From a virus, in IMG/VR virus record IMGVR_UViG_3300025110_000105, positions 1 through 26,881 of that record: a stretch of DNA of 26,881 bases; one strand, given 5' to 3'. A model generated the notes under the pieces. The model ran no database searches. It was not told the DNA's origin and saw only the letters and a list, made by a program, of their open reading frames with translations. The translations under genes and the position numbers were made by a program. Positions 11,594 to 26,481 of this stretch are shown here, in pieces (positions within the stretch are counted from its first letter, which is position 1; the number at the start of each line of letters is the position of its first letter).

Positions 11594-12766
11594 TTACATA
11601 ATATAATATTTACCTCTATTACCTACATTTAATTTATTTAACGCTACATACCTACAGGCATCTATTCCGTGATTATAATTATCTACAGGTTTGTTAGTTA
11701 TTTCGTTATTTTTATCTTTTATCCATTTATAATTTCTAAATTCCTTTATAACGTTCTCACTATTACGTTTTATATTTATTTTATGCCTACGCATAATATC
11801 AATTCCTACTCTAATTGAATCTGCACCTTTTTTTGTAGGCTTAATATTTATATTACCCATTCTGTAAATTTCTTCTATACTTTTTGGCTCGGCACTATCT
11901 GCAAATATTTCTATGTTTCGTTGAATACCTAAATCTTTTATTCTGTTTGCTATATCTTGATTTGTTAATCCTTTCTCATAAATTAATTCCTCAATAAATA
12001 TATCTAGGTCGTGTTTGTATAATTTAATCAATGCCGTAGGATCAGCACTAAAACCAAAATCTAAACCTAATGCTATTTCTTTTGCATTTTCGGGTATATG
12101 ATCAACAACTGTAAAGGTAGGAAATATTGTTTCCATAGATATACCCCTTTGTCCTGTTCCGAATACTCGCCATAAATTTGCGTCTGTTTCTTTTAACCTT
12201 TCTATTTCTTTAATAGTAATATCATTTAAAAAAGGATTATCCTTGTATGTTGATATATGGAAATCTACATCATCTCTATCTGCGTCTATAAGTTGGGTAT
12301 ATAACCAATGAAACTCCTCGGACGGGTTAAAATCAATTATTATTTTAAAAGTTGTCCTTAAAGATAATTGTATAAAATCGTCCATACTAAACTCGTTTGC
12401 CTCATTCATAAACAGGACGTCCCTCTTTCTACCTCTCACCCGTTGTGGCTGATCGACTGAGATAAACTCAAAGTGATTACCATATAGAGTATATAGACCA
12501 CTACTTTTATTATGGTTTCTCTCATCATAAATATTTTCTTGTTTTAATATTTCAAAAAAATCCCTCATAGCCGTACCCCTTAAAGCGGGGAACGTCTTAC
12601 GCGCTATTGTAACATATAATCCTTTACCTTTATTTTTATAAGCAAATTCAATTAATGCTAATATTATAGAATAGGTTTTACCACTACGAGTACCCCCCTG
12701 TAATATGCAAATCCTCTTTTTAGAATTTTTTACATCAAAGTATGGTTTCGCCTGTTTCATCTTCAT
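11594..12766 (-). CDS. terL: Terminase large subunit
   Basis: This 390-residue protein is the ATP-driven DNA packaging motor and genome-cutting nuclease. The ATPase half has Walker A GGTRSGKT at residues 24-31 and Walker B DVLFMNE at about 116-122. The C-terminal RNase H-like nuclease half shows the expected acidic residues in LGLDFGFSADP (Asp236), IFADSAEP (Asp290) and NYNHGIDACRY (Asp369). The length is normal for the Terminase_3/3C type. It overlaps the small subunit gene by 32 bases. The gene ends directly against the convergent 52-residue gene, so late transcription must continue through that small gene in antisense to reach the tail genes, unless a new promoter lies in 11314-11434. Confidence 0.95.
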   Translation of the reverse strand: MKMKQAKPYFDVKNSKKRICILQGGTRSGKTYSIILALIEFAYKNKGKGLYVTIARKTFPALRGTAMRDFFEILKQENIYDERNHNKSSGLYTLYGNHFEFISVDQPQRVRGRKRDVLFMNEANEFSMDDFIQLSLRTTFKIIIDFNPSEEFHWLYTQLIDADRDDVDFHISTYKDNPFLNDITIKEIERLKETDANLWRVFGTGQRGISMETIFPTFTVVDHIPENAKEIALGLDFGFSADPTALIKLYKHDLDIFIEELIYEKGLTNQDIANRIKDLGIQRNIEIFADSAEPKSIEEIYRMGNINIKPTKKGADSIRVGIDIMRRHKINIKRNSENVIKEFRNYKWIKDKNNEITNKPVDNYNHGIDACRYVALNKLNVGNRGKYYIM

Positions 12767-13076
12767 CTGTATTTATCCAAGACGGTGGTGTAGCACTAAC
12801 GTTTACATTTTGATCAGGCAATCCCTCAATTCTGTCCAATATTTCTTTTATTGCCCTTAATTTTTCGTTATTATTACTTTCCTGACTAAATGCTATTTTT
12901 ATTAACATTTTTGCAACGGGTGATCCGAAATGTCCTTCCCCACCTATATTTTTGTCTTGTGTTGATAATAATTCTTTTAATACTGTTGCAACATTCCTAC
13001 TACCTTTAGGACGTCCTTTTTTTTCAGGTTGGTTTTTAGAACTAAATTGTGTTGCCTTATTAGGAAATTGACTCAT
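12735..13076 (-). CDS. terS: Terminase small subunit-like protein (DUF5681-like)
   Basis: This 113-residue protein lies directly upstream of the large terminase and overlaps it. Its N-terminal part (SSKNQPEKKGRPKGSRNVAT, residues about 12-31) matches the basic, Gly-Arg-Pro-rich signature that I associate with DUF5681-type proteins encoded next to terminases. The middle is helical (LRAIKEILDRIEGLPDQ) and the end is acidic. Small terminase subunits recognise the packaging site and regulate the motor. The assignment rests on synteny and this signature, and no classical HTH was evident. The short leader before its start contains two ACGGTA repeats. Confidence 0.7.
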   Translation of the reverse strand: MSQFPNKATQFSSKNQPEKKGRPKGSRNVATVLKELLSTQDKNIGGEGHFGSPVAKMLIKIAFSQESNNNEKLRAIKEILDRIEGLPDQNVNVSATPPSWINTDEDETGETIL

Positions 13077-13085
13077 AATATACCG

Positions 13086-14051
13086 TTATTTTACCGTTAA
13101 ATGTTTTTCTAACATTTTTAAATAATTTAATTTTTTATATTTAGAACTATGGTGTTGTTGTTTCAATATCAACCTATGCCTTTTGTCTTGATCATTCGTT
13201 AGGTTATCTATTTTTTCGTATAATTCGTCTAATGTGTTAAATAATAAATCATCTATTATTACTTCACTATGACAAGTGTTCTCATTATTCATAACCAAAG
13301 GACACAATCCTAAACTAATGCACTCGTGAATACTTGTTCCAAAGTTCTCTAATTCTGCAAATGACACTACAAAACCACATTCTTTAATTAATGATTTATA
13401 CTGTATAAATGGTATTTTAAAATAAAAGTTTTTATATAATCCTTTTAGTTTTGGTATTACACCTAAAGCTCCTTTAGGACTTGATATAATAAACCTATCC
13501 CTATATTCATCTTTTATCTCATATAATTTTTTAAATCCTTTTTCTGTAGATAATCTTTGATTAAATAATATTTTGGTTTCTTTTGAGGGTTTACTAAATT
13601 CATTATCAATAGGTAATCCTAATGGTATAGTTTTTGCGTTTATATATTTACTTAAAAATTTAGAATTAGTAAATAATTTATTCGCCATTTTAACTATTCC
13701 GTCCTCATAATATTTTAACCTTAAATCTGTGCCTACATCACCGGGTTGATTATTAGATGAGTGTAATATTCCATAGATTTCTTTTACAAATCCTGCTTTT
13801 ATAAAATTATTACTAAAATCATCTATGTAATTAATAAAAAAAGCTTTGGTTATTTTTTCTTTCCTCATTATCTCTATGAGTTGTGCCTCGTATCTCATCT
13901 GCATTGATCGACCAGGTAAATATGTTTTTTCTGTAAATTTTATAGGATCATAGAATATATCCCCAAACAAATTGTTTAGTTCTTTCGCCCAATTAATATC
14001 GTAACAATGCTTAACTAATATTATATCATTTCTTTTTCTCATATTTGTCAT
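13086..14051 (-). CDS. GT-B type glycosyltransferase, second of a tandem pair
   Basis: This 321-residue protein has the C-terminal half of a GT4-like glycosyltransferase. It has a donor-side strand NQRLSTEKGFKKLYEI at about 164-179, a typical FVVSFAELENFGTS segment, and the E-x7-E pair Glu235/Glu243 (ELENFGTSIHE region) followed by SLGLCPLVMNN. In this family the E-x7-E motif contacts the nucleotide sugar of retaining enzymes. The N-terminal acceptor half is divergent (GRSMQMRYEAQLIEIM at about 47-62). It overlaps the other transferase gene by 26 bases and lies directly upstream of the terminase. The acceptor could be phage DNA, a virion protein or a host surface glycan. The region is visibly more AT-rich than the tail genes. 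Confidence 0.75.
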   Translation of the reverse strand: MTNMRKRNDIILVKHCYDINWAKELNNLFGDIFYDPIKFTEKTYLPGRSMQMRYEAQLIEIMRKEKITKAFFINYIDDFSNNFIKAGFVKEIYGILHSSNNQPGDVGTDLRLKYYEDGIVKMANKLFTNSKFLSKYINAKTIPLGLPIDNEFSKPSKETKILFNQRLSTEKGFKKLYEIKDEYRDRFIISSPKGALGVIPKLKGLYKNFYFKIPFIQYKSLIKECGFVVSFAELENFGTSIHECISLGLCPLVMNNENTCHSEVIIDDLLFNTLDELYEKIDNLTNDQDKRHRLILKQQHHSSKYKKLNYLKMLEKHLTVK

Positions 14052-15381
14052 AGGTTAAGTTGTAAACAAAACCAAACTCTTTAAGTAATAATTGTAATTT
14101 TTGAATAGGAAAAGATTGACTTGCATATCCTAAAGAATAAACAAATGTTCTAAATTTACTCATATCTATTAATCTGTTTTTGTCTAAAAATTCTTTAATT
14201 TTAATTTTTGAATCCTCTTTTTTTATACGATTAAATACTAAATCCTTTTCGCTTGTAGGTTTTAATTCCTGAAATATATTATCTATATTTTTTGCGTGGT
14301 TAGTTAATAACAATTTGTCTTGTTCTTTATAATTGTATTCTGTTATAGCGTTATCTAATATATATTTAATCTTTTCTTCTTGTTCTGTTTCATTGTCAAA
14401 TAAATAAGGATAACTTTCGTCTAATAATTCAGGGAATGTACAACGATTAGGCGCTATTATTATTTGATTATTTAAAATACTTTCGGCAATACTTATACAG
14501 TATGTTTCGTGGATAGAATTAATTACATTAGCGTGACATTTAGATAATTCCTTAATATAGTCGCTATGTCGCCTTAATGATTTAACCACAACATAAGGTT
14601 TTTTTTCTAATGTTGAAAGGTTATCCCGATCACCTGCAGTAAATATTACTTGAAACTTATAACCTTCACTATATAATTTGTCGAATAATTCAAATGTGGT
14701 TTTCCAACGTTTATATCCACTTAATCTATGATTGTAAATAAAAGTAAATATTTTATGTTTTTCTGTTGTTTGTATTTTTTTGCTATAACCACCCAATTTA
14801 ATATGTGATATTTTTTTTAGGTTTTCTATTTGTTTTTCATTTAATACATCTTTGGCTTCTTCAAACATCATATTATAGCAATATTCGGTATGAAAATAAT
14901 TATAATCTACAAGCATACTACCCATAATTTGATCTAACAAAATATGTCGGCACGGATTATAATAGGTGAGTTTATCTAAACTCCTGTGTATTACATAATG
15001 GTGATAATTAAAAACTTTAGGTCTAAAATGATCAACCATAATATCTTGAAAATATTTAAGGTGATGCCCTTGCTCAACAACATTGTTCCAAATTATGTCT
15101 ATTGGATATTGCTTAAATATCTTATCTAATATATTAGGGTTAAAATAAACAACTTGGTGTTTTTTACTTTGGGGGAATGGTATTCTTAAAACTTTCACTC
15201 GTTTGTCTAAATCCCCTTGAACGTAAGGTCTTTTGGCGTCTAATAATAATATAAAATTATACCTATCTGTTTTTAGTAATTCATTACAAATTTGCTTTAT
15301 TATTATGTAATTGCTATCGGCATTAATATTGTGTACCGATAACATAGGATAAATTAATATATTTAGTTTATTACTTTGCAT
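14026..15381 (-). CDS. GT-B type glycosyltransferase, first of a tandem pair
   Basis: This 451-residue protein starts with a Rossmann-like strand (NILIYPMLSVHNINADSNYI). Its C-terminal catalytic half includes FTFIYNHRLSGYKRWKTTFE at about 212-231, FQVIFTAGD at 243-251, and SIHETYCISIAESILNNQII with the E-x7-E pair Glu292/Glu300, then APNRCTFPELL. This pattern is of GT4-like retaining glycosyltransferases, and similar proteins occur, as I recall, in marine tailed phages. The last ~60 residues (DMSKFRTFVYSLGYASQSF onward) form an extra tail with no family recognised. It overlaps the ParB-like gene by 19 bases and the second transferase by 26, suggesting coordinated synthesis. The substrate is unknown. 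Confidence 0.75.
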   Translation of the reverse strand: MQSNKLNILIYPMLSVHNINADSNYIIIKQICNELLKTDRYNFILLLDAKRPYVQGDLDKRVKVLRIPFPQSKKHQVVYFNPNILDKIFKQYPIDIIWNNVVEQGHHLKYFQDIMVDHFRPKVFNYHHYVIHRSLDKLTYYNPCRHILLDQIMGSMLVDYNYFHTEYCYNMMFEEAKDVLNEKQIENLKKISHIKLGGYSKKIQTTEKHKIFTFIYNHRLSGYKRWKTTFELFDKLYSEGYKFQVIFTAGDRDNLSTLEKKPYVVVKSLRRHSDYIKELSKCHANVINSIHETYCISIAESILNNQIIIAPNRCTFPELLDESYPYLFDNETEQEEKIKYILDNAITEYNYKEQDKLLLTNHAKNIDNIFQELKPTSEKDLVFNRIKKEDSKIKIKEFLDKNRLIDMSKFRTFVYSLGYASQSFPIQKLQLLLKEFGFVYNLTYDKYEKKK

Positions 15382-15890
15382 TTTATATCCGCGTGTTTGG
15401 TGGTTATTTCATTTAATTGTTTATCTATTTCTTTATATGTTTCTATAGACATAAATAATTCTATCTTAACCCCGTCATTAAATGTATCTGAAAAATCTTC
15501 AATCTCATCTTCTTTAAATTCGAAACTCTTTAATCCTAATTCTAAATCACTAAAACCCCAATCATTTAAGTCCGCTATTTCAAACTCATTAGCGAGGATA
15601 TCCATATCAAAATCACCACCCGATTTATTTAATCTAACATTTAATTCCTTTTCTTGCGTTTTATCTAAATCTAATTTTACACAAGGCACTTTTTTAATAT
15701 TTAAACTTTCGGCAACCTTTAACCTTTGGTGACCACCTATAACCGTATTATCTTTATTGATCAATATGGGATCTACTAAACCAAATTTCTGAATTGAGGT
15801 TTTTAAATCTTCAAATTGTTTTTTGGTTATTTGTCTTGGATTATATGTTGCGGGGATAAGTTTATCTATTTCTATTTCTATTATTTTCAT
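15363..15890 (-). CDS. ParB/Srx-fold domain protein
   Basis: This 175-residue protein begins with a clear ParB N-terminal-like domain. It has LIPATYNPRQITKKQFEDL at about 11-29, SIQKFGLVDPILIN at 32-45, and GGHQRLKVAESLNIKKVP at 52-69. The NPR and GGHQR motifs form the nucleotide/phosphate-binding site of this fold. There is no C-terminal HTH or dimer domain of a partition ParB, so chromosome segregation is unlikely. Phage versions are often linked with DNA-modification or DNA-processing genes. The acidic C-terminal half (KEDEIEDFSDTFND) is unrecognised. It overlaps the HNH gene by 29 bases and the first glycosyltransferase by 19, tying it to that block. Confidence 0.8.
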   Translation of the reverse strand: MKIIEIEIDKLIPATYNPRQITKKQFEDLKTSIQKFGLVDPILINKDNTVIGGHQRLKVAESLNIKKVPCVKLDLDKTQEKELNVRLNKSGGDFDMDILANEFEIADLNDWGFSDLELGLKSFEFKEDEIEDFSDTFNDGVKIELFMSIETYKEIDKQLNEITTKHADIKCKVIN

Positions 15891-16185
15891 ATTCTTTTAG
15901 TTTTTTTTCTAAATTAATTAAGGCATAAATTTGACTACATACATTTTCTAGGTGTTTTATTTTGCAGAACATATTGAACATAGAATCTGATTCTGCCTTT
16001 TGATGACATTCCCGACAAACCCCAATTAGATTTTCTATATAATCTTTTTCCTTTTTTTTACCGAATTTACTTTGCCTTTCTAAATGGTGAATATCTACCG
16101 CCTTTGATCCACACATCTCACAGGGAATAAAATCTTGTTCCCCATAATCAAAAAAATCCATATATACTTTAGTGTGGGTTTTCAT
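15862..16185 (-). CDS. HNH endonuclease
   Basis: This 107-residue protein has a zinc-stabilised HNH nuclease core. Structural Cys pairs are Cys22/Cys25 (PCEMC) and Cys57/Cys60 (VCREC). The catalytic motif is DIHHL at 31-35, Asn52 in DYIENLIGVC, and His61 right after the second Cys pair. A helical C-terminal tail follows. In many cos-type phages a small HNH protein near the terminase helps the packaging motor cut DNA, and this one lies five genes upstream of it in the same transcript. A homing or host-DNA-degrading role is possible. The start overlaps the preceding zinc-ribbon gene by ATGA. Confidence 0.85.
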   Translation of the reverse strand: MKTHTKVYMDFFDYGEQDFIPCEMCGSKAVDIHHLERQSKFGKKKEKDYIENLIGVCRECHQKAESDSMFNMFCKIKHLENVCSQIYALINLEKKLKEYENNRNRNR

Positions 16186-24657: not shown

Positions 24658-26481
24658 TTATTTAACACCAGGATAATGTCCTTCATTAGGCATATTAATA
24701 GGTGCTTTTTCTGCTGTTTTTTGTCCTTTTATGTCAGGCATATATTCCGACGGTATTTTATTAATTTTATTGTAGTCATTATCTATGGTAGCGCCTTTTA
24801 ATTTCGTTCCGTCTTTTAATCTATACAATATTGTTTTCCAAGCGTGACGGCAATAAACCCCGCCTTTGAACAAAAATAAGTCATATTTTTTGCCTTTATG
24901 TCCTAATTGCCTATTAACACCTGCCCGACTAGCATTATTAATATCTTCAATCCTATAAACAAATCCACCTTTTGCTAAAGTCATCATATTCTCACAGAAT
25001 GTTCTTGTACCATTCCTTTTTTTAGTATATGGGTTTATTTTATTAGCTTTTCTACTCTTTTTAATGTATTTAAATCTAATTCTATAATGTGACTTATCTA
25101 ATTTACTTTTTTTGTTTTCTCGACTTACAATTTCATCTGCAAAATTATATTTCTCATCTTTTTCTATAAAGTGGTTTGCCCAATCGTCATAATCCTCTAC
25201 TAATCCCTCGTCCTGTTCATCAACGATCTCCCAAACATCAGAATCTATTTTGTCACCGTGCAAATTGTTAAGCACATCGTCCATATCCTCATCTGACATT
25301 TCCACAAAATCATCTTGAGTAACACCCTCTTTTTCCTGATCTTCTTCTGATTGCGTTTCTGTTACTTCTAAATCTATGAAATCCGCAGGTTTTAAAGACG
25401 TAAAATATAAATCTAAGTCAATATCATTAACCTTAAATATTTTATTCAATCCTTTAAGCAAAATGTGTTGAAATGGAATAATAACGGTATTATTAAATAA
25501 TGAATAAGCGTCCCTTAATTCTTCTGCGTTTGATCCTAAACCGCCACCTTCTGCTCTAATTCCAAATAAAAGTGGACTTGTTACTCTATGTCCCGATAGT
25601 ATTTTATTAACAACCTCTTTAGATAAAAATTGATAACTCTCTGATGCACTATTAGAATCAATAGGGATTATTTCAGGTGAATTATCTTTGCCGTCATTGA
25701 AAGTTATCATAATACGCCCACTATTTCCTGATCCCGAAAACTTATCCTGTATTTGCCTTTCTATGGTACGCCTTTCTTCTTCTGTTGGTACACCATTAGC
25801 GAAATTGATAGCCATACTTGGAAACATTCCATTACTAATATTAGCTAAATGAAATTGAGCAATTTCTAAATCTAATTGTATATAATCTGTAGATGCAATA
25901 TAATCAGGTGCAAATCCATAGAACATAGCGGGGTTTTTATCCCTGATCATTAATATTTGACTAGCTTGAGTCCTGTCTGTTGTAGAAAAAGCCTTGTATG
26001 GGCGTGGTTTATATTCCTTTTTTTTGCATTTAGACCAATCCGCACTATAATAATAGGTTTCTACTTCACCGTCAACTAATTTACCACTCCTTATATATTG
26101 AGCGCCAATGTGAGAAATTTTACTTATCTTTTTCCTATCCCTTGACCATATTACATTCACATAACAACCACCGAACAATTTTAAATCTAAAGCTAAATCT
26201 TTTAGAACGTCATCAGATGAATTGTCTAAAAGTTCGTTTATTTTTAACCAACTTTCTTTTGTAGCCTCACTTTCATCTACATTGGTTGCATTTAATCCCT
26301 CTCCATAAATCATAGCGCCAATAGATTTTACTAATGCACCATTGATAGCACTACCTAAAAATAATTCTAACAAATAATTAGGGTATAAATTATCTTCCCC
26401 AAAACTTATCCATTCCTGATTGGTTTTTTCGACTAAATGTGGTATGTTATAATGTGAAAGTTCTACAAAATTTAATTTCAT
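24658..26481 (-). CDS. Portal protein with an unusual C-terminal extension
   Basis: This 607-residue protein forms the DNA entry/exit ring of the head. Residues 1-370 look like a portal: WISFGEDNLYPNYLLELFLG at about 24-43, IGAMIYGEGL at 54-63, FGGCYVNVIW at 103-112, and a late helical stem region (VVNKILSGHRVTSPLLFGI). An acidic linker at about 375-455 leads to a separate basic domain (about 463-570) with RTFCENMMTLAKGGFVYRIE and DLFLFKGGVYCRHAWKTILY. The Cys-x-His-x-x-Trp motif there is not part of ordinary portals. The gene is far from protease and scaffold, which usually follow it. Confidence 0.8.
   Translation of the reverse strand: MKLNFVELSHYNIPHLVEKTNQEWISFGEDNLYPNYLLELFLGSAINGALVKSIGAMIYGEGLNATNVDESEATKESWLKINELLDNSSDDVLKDLALDLKLFGGCYVNVIWSRDRKKISKISHIGAQYIRSGKLVDGEVETYYYSADWSKCKKKEYKPRPYKAFSTTDRTQASQILMIRDKNPAMFYGFAPDYIASTDYIQLDLEIAQFHLANISNGMFPSMAINFANGVPTEEERRTIERQIQDKFSGSGNSGRIMITFNDGKDNSPEIIPIDSNSASESYQFLSKEVVNKILSGHRVTSPLLFGIRAEGGGLGSNAEELRDAYSLFNNTVIIPFQHILLKGLNKIFKVNDIDLDLYFTSLKPADFIDLEVTETQSEEDQEKEGVTQDDFVEMSDEDMDDVLNNLHGDKIDSDVWEIVDEQDEGLVEDYDDWANHFIEKDEKYNFADEIVSRENKKSKLDKSHYRIRFKYIKKSRKANKINPYTKKRNGTRTFCENMMTLAKGGFVYRIEDINNASRAGVNRQLGHKGKKYDLFLFKGGVYCRHAWKTILYRLKDGTKLKGATIDNDYNKINKIPSEYMPDIKGQKTAEKAPINMPNEGHYPGVK

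Follow-up and report, generated by a model that had tools for sequence, protein, structure and literature searches.

By hypermodifying their DNA, phages protect it from the nucleases of restriction and CRISPR systems, and hypermodification also yields enzymes of practical use. Characterized DNA glucosylation needs a hydroxymethylated base, and to our knowledge all characterized DNA glycosyltransferases (GTs) act on a hydroxyl or amino handle (a hydroxylated base). Here, we describe a probable DNA-glycosylation cassette in the 26,881-bp IMG/VR virus record IMGVR_UViG_3300025110_000105, which we call the window. The cassette is built around GTB, a GT4-like GT whose gene follows a gene for a protein with a ParB N-terminal domain (ParB) and, in this phage, precedes a gene for a second GT, GTA.

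Among the described systems closest to this locus, the TET-associated glycosyltransferase (TAGT) family has a GT-A fold and includes the T2/T6 beta-glucosyl-HMC-alpha-GT, which adds a second sugar (PMC13216743). Contigs carrying the carboxymethyltransferase CmoX often contain ParBc genes, the function of which is stated as unknown (PMC12783734). In cryoconite phages, methyltransferases and an acetyltransferase have been gained and lost within a 2-kb, ParB-containing stretch of the DNA packaging module (PMC7468147). The window carries, on the minus strand and in order of transcription, genes for HNH, ParB, GTB, GTA, the small terminase subunit (TerS) and the large terminase subunit (TerL). HNH and ParB overlap by 29 nt, ParB and GTB by 19 nt, and GTB and GTA by 26 nt; TerS starts 9 nt past GTA and is itself overlapped by TerL. 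A preliminary description of this DNA had reported two overlapping GT-B genes, a ParB gene and an HNH gene, all running into the terminase, and we recovered this anatomy, with all four open reading frames (ORFs) in place. The features of the cassette are as follows:

14026..15381, minus strand: GTB, 451 aa; GT4-like GT with a GT-B fold, PF00534 above cut-off; core enzyme of the cassette
14482..14508, minus strand: E-x7-E motif of GTB, Glu292 to Glu300; 100% conserved in 60 distinct GTBs
14029..14250, minus strand: C-terminal domain of GTB, residues ~378-451; basic, modelled with winged-helix topology H-S-H-H-S-S, proposed to contact DNA
15363..15890, minus strand: ParB N-terminal-domain protein, 175 aa; PF02195, phrog_498 match; partner of the modification enzyme
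15366..15509, minus strand: C-terminal tail of ParB, last 48 residues; cargo-specific, its similarity tracking cargo class
13086..14051, minus strand: GTA, 321 aa; second GT4-like GT, PF00534 above cut-off; optional partner
13323..13349, minus strand: E-x7-E motif of GTA, Glu235 to Glu243; Glu235 invariant in four homologues, Glu243 replaced by Asp in contig L011

The ParB-GTB unit

We consider it probable, at roughly 0.65, that GTB acts as the catalytic center of a cassette for glycosylating phage DNA, in which ParB does the loading, GTA extends the product and the sugar protects the DNA. ParB, translated just before GTB through their overlap, would load on phage DNA and recruit GTB to it by a cargo-specific C-terminal tail. 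GTB would then contact the DNA with its winged-helix-like domain and move a sugar from a nucleotide-sugar onto a base; GTA, in some phages only, would add a second sugar, and the product would shield the DNA from host nucleases. DNA is favored as the acceptor because the corresponding position in relatives holds DNA-modifying enzymes (methyltransferases, TAGT, Tet/JBP, Mom and 7-deazaguanine genes), and because of the adjacency of ParB, GTB and terminase, the basic C-terminal domain, the cargo-tracking ParB tail and the restriction resistance of phage DLP3.

A profile scan of viral contigs revealed more than 80 GTB homologues. In 69 of the 70 loci with upstream DNA, the gene immediately 5' of GTB is ParB, and 54 of these pairs have the identical 19-nt overlap; in the sole locus without ParB (L169), the contig breaks off after a short fragment. 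A terminase gene follows within 1.8 kb in 68 of the 69 loci with downstream DNA, a count that includes seven large ORFs of 436-444 aa, of which the one tested matches Terminase_6N. The ParB-GTB adjacency is kept in phages with different terminase families. Furthermore, a group of GTBs at 33% identity retains the order ParB-GTB-TerS-TerL with almost no other gene in common with the window, and the phages of the G010 group keep ParB-GTB with no detectable structural protein in common with it. No GTB was confirmed in bacterial genomes, in a scan that rested on two short patterns, and none was found in the plasmids searched. In one GTB locus (L120:2600-8882), HNH-ParB-GTB-TerS-TerL is preceded by an ORF resembling left-handed-helix acyltransferases, a GT2 gene and a GT4-like ORF, a gene set hinting at a larger glycan.

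GTA and GTB both match PF00534 (Glycos_transf_1), with 28.8 and 29.8 bits against a gathering cut-off of 26.4; neither matches the T4 AGT/BGT families PF11440 and PF09198, the only other match being a sub-threshold one. Residues H218, R219, K224, E292 and E300 are invariant in 60 distinct full-length GTB homologues. The E-x7-E pairs highlighted in the preliminary description thus stand, for GTB in 60 of 60 sequences and for GTA, in four homologues, with an invariant Glu235 and either Glu or Asp at position 243; this conservation is far beyond chance. An AlphaFold2 model of GTB built from eight sequences (predicted local distance difference test score, pLDDT, 77.7; predicted template modelling score, pTM, 0.78) shows a GT-B fold followed by the C-terminal domain. 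In Foldseek comparisons of this model, the retaining GT4 enzymes MshA, PglA and BshA come first among PDB entries, with T4 AGT at rank 30, and GTs of Arthrobacter phages rank near the top among viral models.

The C-terminal domain of GTB has an isoelectric point of 9.7 and is conserved across the family. In the model, where its pLDDT is mostly 75-93, DSSP assigns helices at 389-401, 407-416 and 426-435, a short strand at 404-405, and strands at 438-441 and 446-449. Sequence searches against PDB and Pfam gave no match for this domain; because no sequence profile recognizes it, we propose from the modelled topology that it binds DNA.

ParB matches PF02195 with 37.2 bits (cut-off 26.3; 3e-9), and its best PHROG match is phrog_498, a ParB-fused "DNA methyltransferase" family, over residues 1-140 (1.8e-37). 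Against the full partition-protein model TIGR00180 (ParB/RepB/Spo0J) it scores 34.5 bits, below the cut-off of 58.45. Across the ParB proteins compared, similarity of the N-terminal part tracks phage lineage, and similarity of the tail, from which the last seven residues were left out (their DNA is shared with the start of GTB), tracks cargo class. Pairs with an N-part similarity of 0.5-0.7 have a tail similarity of 0.39 when they serve the same cargo versus 0.12 when the cargo differs; none of 2000 label shuffles reached the observed value, a figure that is optimistic since related sequences were included. The N-part of the window ParB is 0.6-0.7 similar to ParBs of sister phages with TAGT, a C5-methyltransferase or no enzyme at this position, but for the tail the similarity to the same ParBs is no more than 0.08-0.15. 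Every one of the best matches to this tail comes from a ParB encoded at a GTB locus, including those with N-parts only 0.2-0.3 similar. Two readings of the tail remain: an adaptor for the enzyme, or a segment that co-travels with the enzyme through recombination inside ParB.

GTA lies directly 3' of GTB in four contigs only, and two scans found it nowhere else; GTB mostly occurs without it. The model of GTA, built from four sequences, is poor (pLDDT 54), and no fold can be read from it. The earlier proposal that the two GTs act in sequence gains from this distribution alone, which fits GTB acting before GTA and GTA performing a second-sugar step.

Exchange of enzymes between ParB and the terminase

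Phages with a TerL 70-87% identical to that of the window share the gene order HTH-u127-HNH-ParB-[slot]-TerS-TerL, and the slot, which in the window holds GTB and GTA, is either empty or filled. Its occupants in these sister phages include N6/N4 DNA methyltransferases (L013 and L036, where they are fused to ParB, and L014), C5 methyltransferases (L021, L023, L028, L031, L040 and L041), TAGT (L016, L022, L024 and L025) and, in a single phage, an ABC-GNAT fusion (L035). TAGT (PF20691) genes were located at L016:8760-9503, L022:8934-9674 and L024:8934-9674; a scan of these three contigs (G016, G018 and G019) for Tet_JBP, run with no positive control, gave no match. In more distant relatives, the slot holds Tet/JBP (L062, L069, L073, L082 and L084), Mom (L042 and L090), a DndC/PAPS-reductase-like gene (L070) or a 7-deazaguanine gene set (L078). 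The alternatives are mutually exclusive, because local TET, TAGT, C5 and N6 methyltransferase profiles match no GTB locus; PF20691 likewise has no match in the window.

The last of these relatives, IMGVR_UViG_3300012919_000025 (L078:4972-10909), carries QueD, QueE, FolE, a GTA-like GT4, a queuine-tRNA-ribosyltransferase-like (DpdA-like) gene and ParB, directly followed by TerS-TerL, and possibly makes a glycosylated 7-deazaguanine DNA modification. Because its GT4 sits within a 7-deazaguanine gene set beside ParB-TerS-TerL, this locus also favors a DNA acceptor. In L070:703-3665, the DndC/PAPS-reductase-like gene precedes the terminase and has a distinct ParB gene on either side.

Remote homologues of GTB are present in 10 of 50,697 phage records and form three groups: Kelleziovirus (Kitkat, KellEzio and BeatusComedenti), DanielleIgnace, and the Stenotrophomonas phages DLP3, DLP5 and Summit. 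Profile-profile comparison with GTB gave a probability of 99.1% and covered the N-terminal acceptor domain. In the one phage inspected per group (Arthrobacter phage Kitkat, DanielleIgnace and DLP3), ParB lies at most two genes from the GT, and in DLP3 the order continues to TerL. The DNA of DLP3 resists all 15 of the 15 restriction enzymes tried; its authors concluded that it is modified in an undetermined manner and proposed a role of the GT in lipopolysaccharide (LPS) (PMC7326821). As this phage has many genes of unknown function, modification by its GT is suggestive only. Neither Tet_JBP nor PF00303 has a match in Kitkat, DanielleIgnace or DLP3. One DLP3 gene annotated as thymidylate synthase (L217:40757-41533, QIN95304.1) was considered as a handle maker and rejected; by Pfam it is tyrosine-phosphatase-like, and it is probably misannotated.

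The genes flanking the cassette in the window are:

15862..16185, minus strand: HNH endonuclease, 107 aa; PF01844; lineage gene outside the conserved cassette
12735..13076, minus strand: candidate TerS; phrog_2538 (4.9e-4), conserved in position; 3' border of the slot
11594..12766, minus strand: TerL; PF04466 (1e-25) and PF17288 (1.5e-17)

HNH matches PF01844 with 32.5 bits (cut-off 21.4; 9.4e-8) and is kept throughout the TerL lineage irrespective of the cargo, GT-less sister phages included, and phmmer found no match to it in the other nine GT-carrying genomes compared (G002-G010). We therefore rejected the four-gene block of the preliminary description as one conserved unit: HNH tracks the phage lineage and not the cassette, and the cassette itself is linked to packaging by gene position only. 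The nearest relatives of the window TerL, at ~40% identity, are terminases of gut and Bacteroides/Phocaeicola phages, which makes a Bacteroidota host likely. A scaffold-like head gene (534-1169) and the portal gene (24658-26481) lie at opposite ends of the record. The window probably represents an almost complete genome with its break close to the capsid gene and a short segment bearing the major capsid gene missing, because no major capsid match was seen in it and its closest relative measures 28.6 kb.

The acceptor and the source of its handle

The most interesting point of this system is the absence of a recognized hydroxylase. Tet_JBP (PF12851) was found in none of the 15 GT-carrying records (G000-G014), which are not certified complete, in a search that recovered five of five positive controls; the PF00303 superfamily (dCMP hydroxymethylase/thymidylate-synthase type) was equally absent from these 15 records and was detected in control genomes. 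None of the remaining window proteins matches a base-modifying family in Pfam, and the earlier remark that the window encodes no base-hydroxylating enzyme holds for the families tested. When the window genes were compared by phmmer with ten GT-carrying and ten GT-less contigs, GTB alone occurred in every GT-carrying contig and in no GT-less one. A co-inherited hydroxylase was rejected as well, since phmmer, BLAST and hidden Markov model comparisons of the two sets left only GTB. Two further BLAST candidates proved to be the scaffold-like head gene; profile searching detects this gene in GT-less genomes as well. N6/N4 methyltransferases were seen in four of the GT-less contigs but in none of the GT-carrying ones. 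The partial PF00145 matches in the GT-carrying G002 and G014 span at most roughly a third of the profile, and we do not take them for C5 methyltransferases.

These results bear on how a DNA acceptor would be prepared. It is a serious possibility that an unrecognized phage enzyme or the host supplies the hydroxyl or amino handle, in which case the system would be a conventional hydroxy-base glycosylation pathway whose first enzyme is hidden. The characterized DNA GTs known to us all use such a handle, many small proteins of GT-carrying phages are unannotated, and the GTA-like GT4 of L078 adjoins 7-deazaguanine genes. GTB, however, is the only gene that separates the GT-carrying from the GT-less genomes compared, and a handle maker would need to be common to all of them, lineage-specific or supplied by diverse hosts. 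A bolder version, which we hold only tentatively and find rather doubtful, is that ParB and GTB are self-sufficient: the sugar would go onto a canonical base or onto a handle made within the complex, with ParB as a general loader carrying an exchangeable tail.

The main rival to a DNA acceptor is glycosylation of a phage protein such as the capsid, the terminase or ParB itself, which we regard as unlikely. In its favor, the cassette adjoins packaging genes, the searches for a base hydroxylase came up empty, GT4 enzymes have a wide range of acceptors, the PDB fold neighbors of GTB include the protein-glycosylation enzyme PglA, and a GT that overlaps its own acceptor gene is conceivable for ParB. 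Yet ParB is equally placed beside DNA methyltransferases, TAGT, Tet/JBP and Mom and is thus not a GT-specific acceptor, the G010-group phages keep ParB-GTB with no structural protein detectably shared with the window, and a protein acceptor leaves the basic winged-helix-like domain unexplained. Alteration of host surface glycans, for receptor masking or superinfection exclusion, had been raised in the preliminary description alongside DNA and appears very unlikely. LPS and polysaccharide GTs are among the GT-B fold neighbors, and the DLP3 authors proposed such a role for their GT (PMC7326821), but the cassette is linked to ParB, trades its slot with DNA-modifying enzymes and is accompanied by neither a flippase nor a membrane protein. 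Least likely is that the GTs are unrelated accessory genes in a permissive spot before the terminase, a reading that variable packaging modules (as in PMC7468147) would accommodate and that the 69/70 ParB adjacency, the constant overlap in divergent phages and the cargo-linked tails, all unexpected of random insertion, already disfavor.

Several observations weigh against DNA glycosylation by GTB. Neither the window nor the other GT-carrying contigs encode a recognized base hydroxylase or hydroxymethylase. The nearest PDB folds of GTB are small-molecule or polysaccharide GTs, with T4 AGT only 30th, and the winged-helix reading of its C-terminal domain lacks sequence-profile support. The phages in the tail shuffle test are related and hence not independent. 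One slot occupant, an ABC-ATPase and GNAT fusion (L035:8609-9685, phrog_11143), has no known DNA-modifying role. Finally, the resistance of DLP3 DNA may have another cause, and the DLP3 GT is only a remote homologue. Set against these points, the DNA target suggested earlier has gained indirect evidence from the slot swap, from ParB domains fused to or preceding DNA-modifying enzymes and from the modelled topology of the GTB C-terminus.

If ParB and GTB are indeed self-sufficient, the cassette would represent a new DNA-glycosylation chemistry that needs no prior hydroxymethylation, together with a new modular logic of phage DNA modification. A widespread, ParB-tied GTB family in ~30 kb genomes with no recognized hydroxylase would point to a new acceptor chemistry, and the cargo-linked tail offers a testable answer to why ParB domains so frequently accompany phage DNA-modifying enzymes. 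Cultured phages with distant homologues make such a test practical.

Relation to known DNA modification systems

Like T4 AGT and BGT (PF11440/PF09198), GTB is a phage-encoded enzyme of GT-B fold with DNA as its proposed acceptor, and its model has a Foldseek match to AGT. It differs from them in its GT4-type E-x7-E motif, its extra C-terminal domain and its linkage to ParB, and the T-even system includes a hydroxymethylase, which was not found in the GTB contigs. In sister phages, TAGT (PF20691) sits where GTB and GTA do in the window, between ParB and TerS, and the T2/T6 enzyme within that family has the second-sugar role proposed for GTA; TAGT, however, has a GT-A fold, in contrast to the GT-B type found here.

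The GT-ParB loci of Kitkat/KellEzio and DLP3/DLP5 resemble the window in placing a remote GTB homologue at most two genes from ParB, in DLP3 also before TerL. They differ in their low identity (~20-25%), their larger genomes and a GT that lies 5' and not 3' of ParB; in DLP3, sugar-nucleotide genes additionally adjoin the GT. In the ParB-fused or ParB-linked phage DNA methyltransferases (phrog_498; fusions in L013 and L036), the same ParB N-terminal module precedes the enzyme as in GTB loci, whereas the partner in the present cassette, unlike in these systems and in CmoX contigs, is a GT. Similarly, the cryoconite phage islands share with the slot a variable packaging-module region with ParB and exchanged methyltransferases, and the passages of that report consulted here describe no GT or cargo-linked ParB tail (PMC7468147). 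Overall, we regard the system as a probable new form of phage DNA hypermodification.

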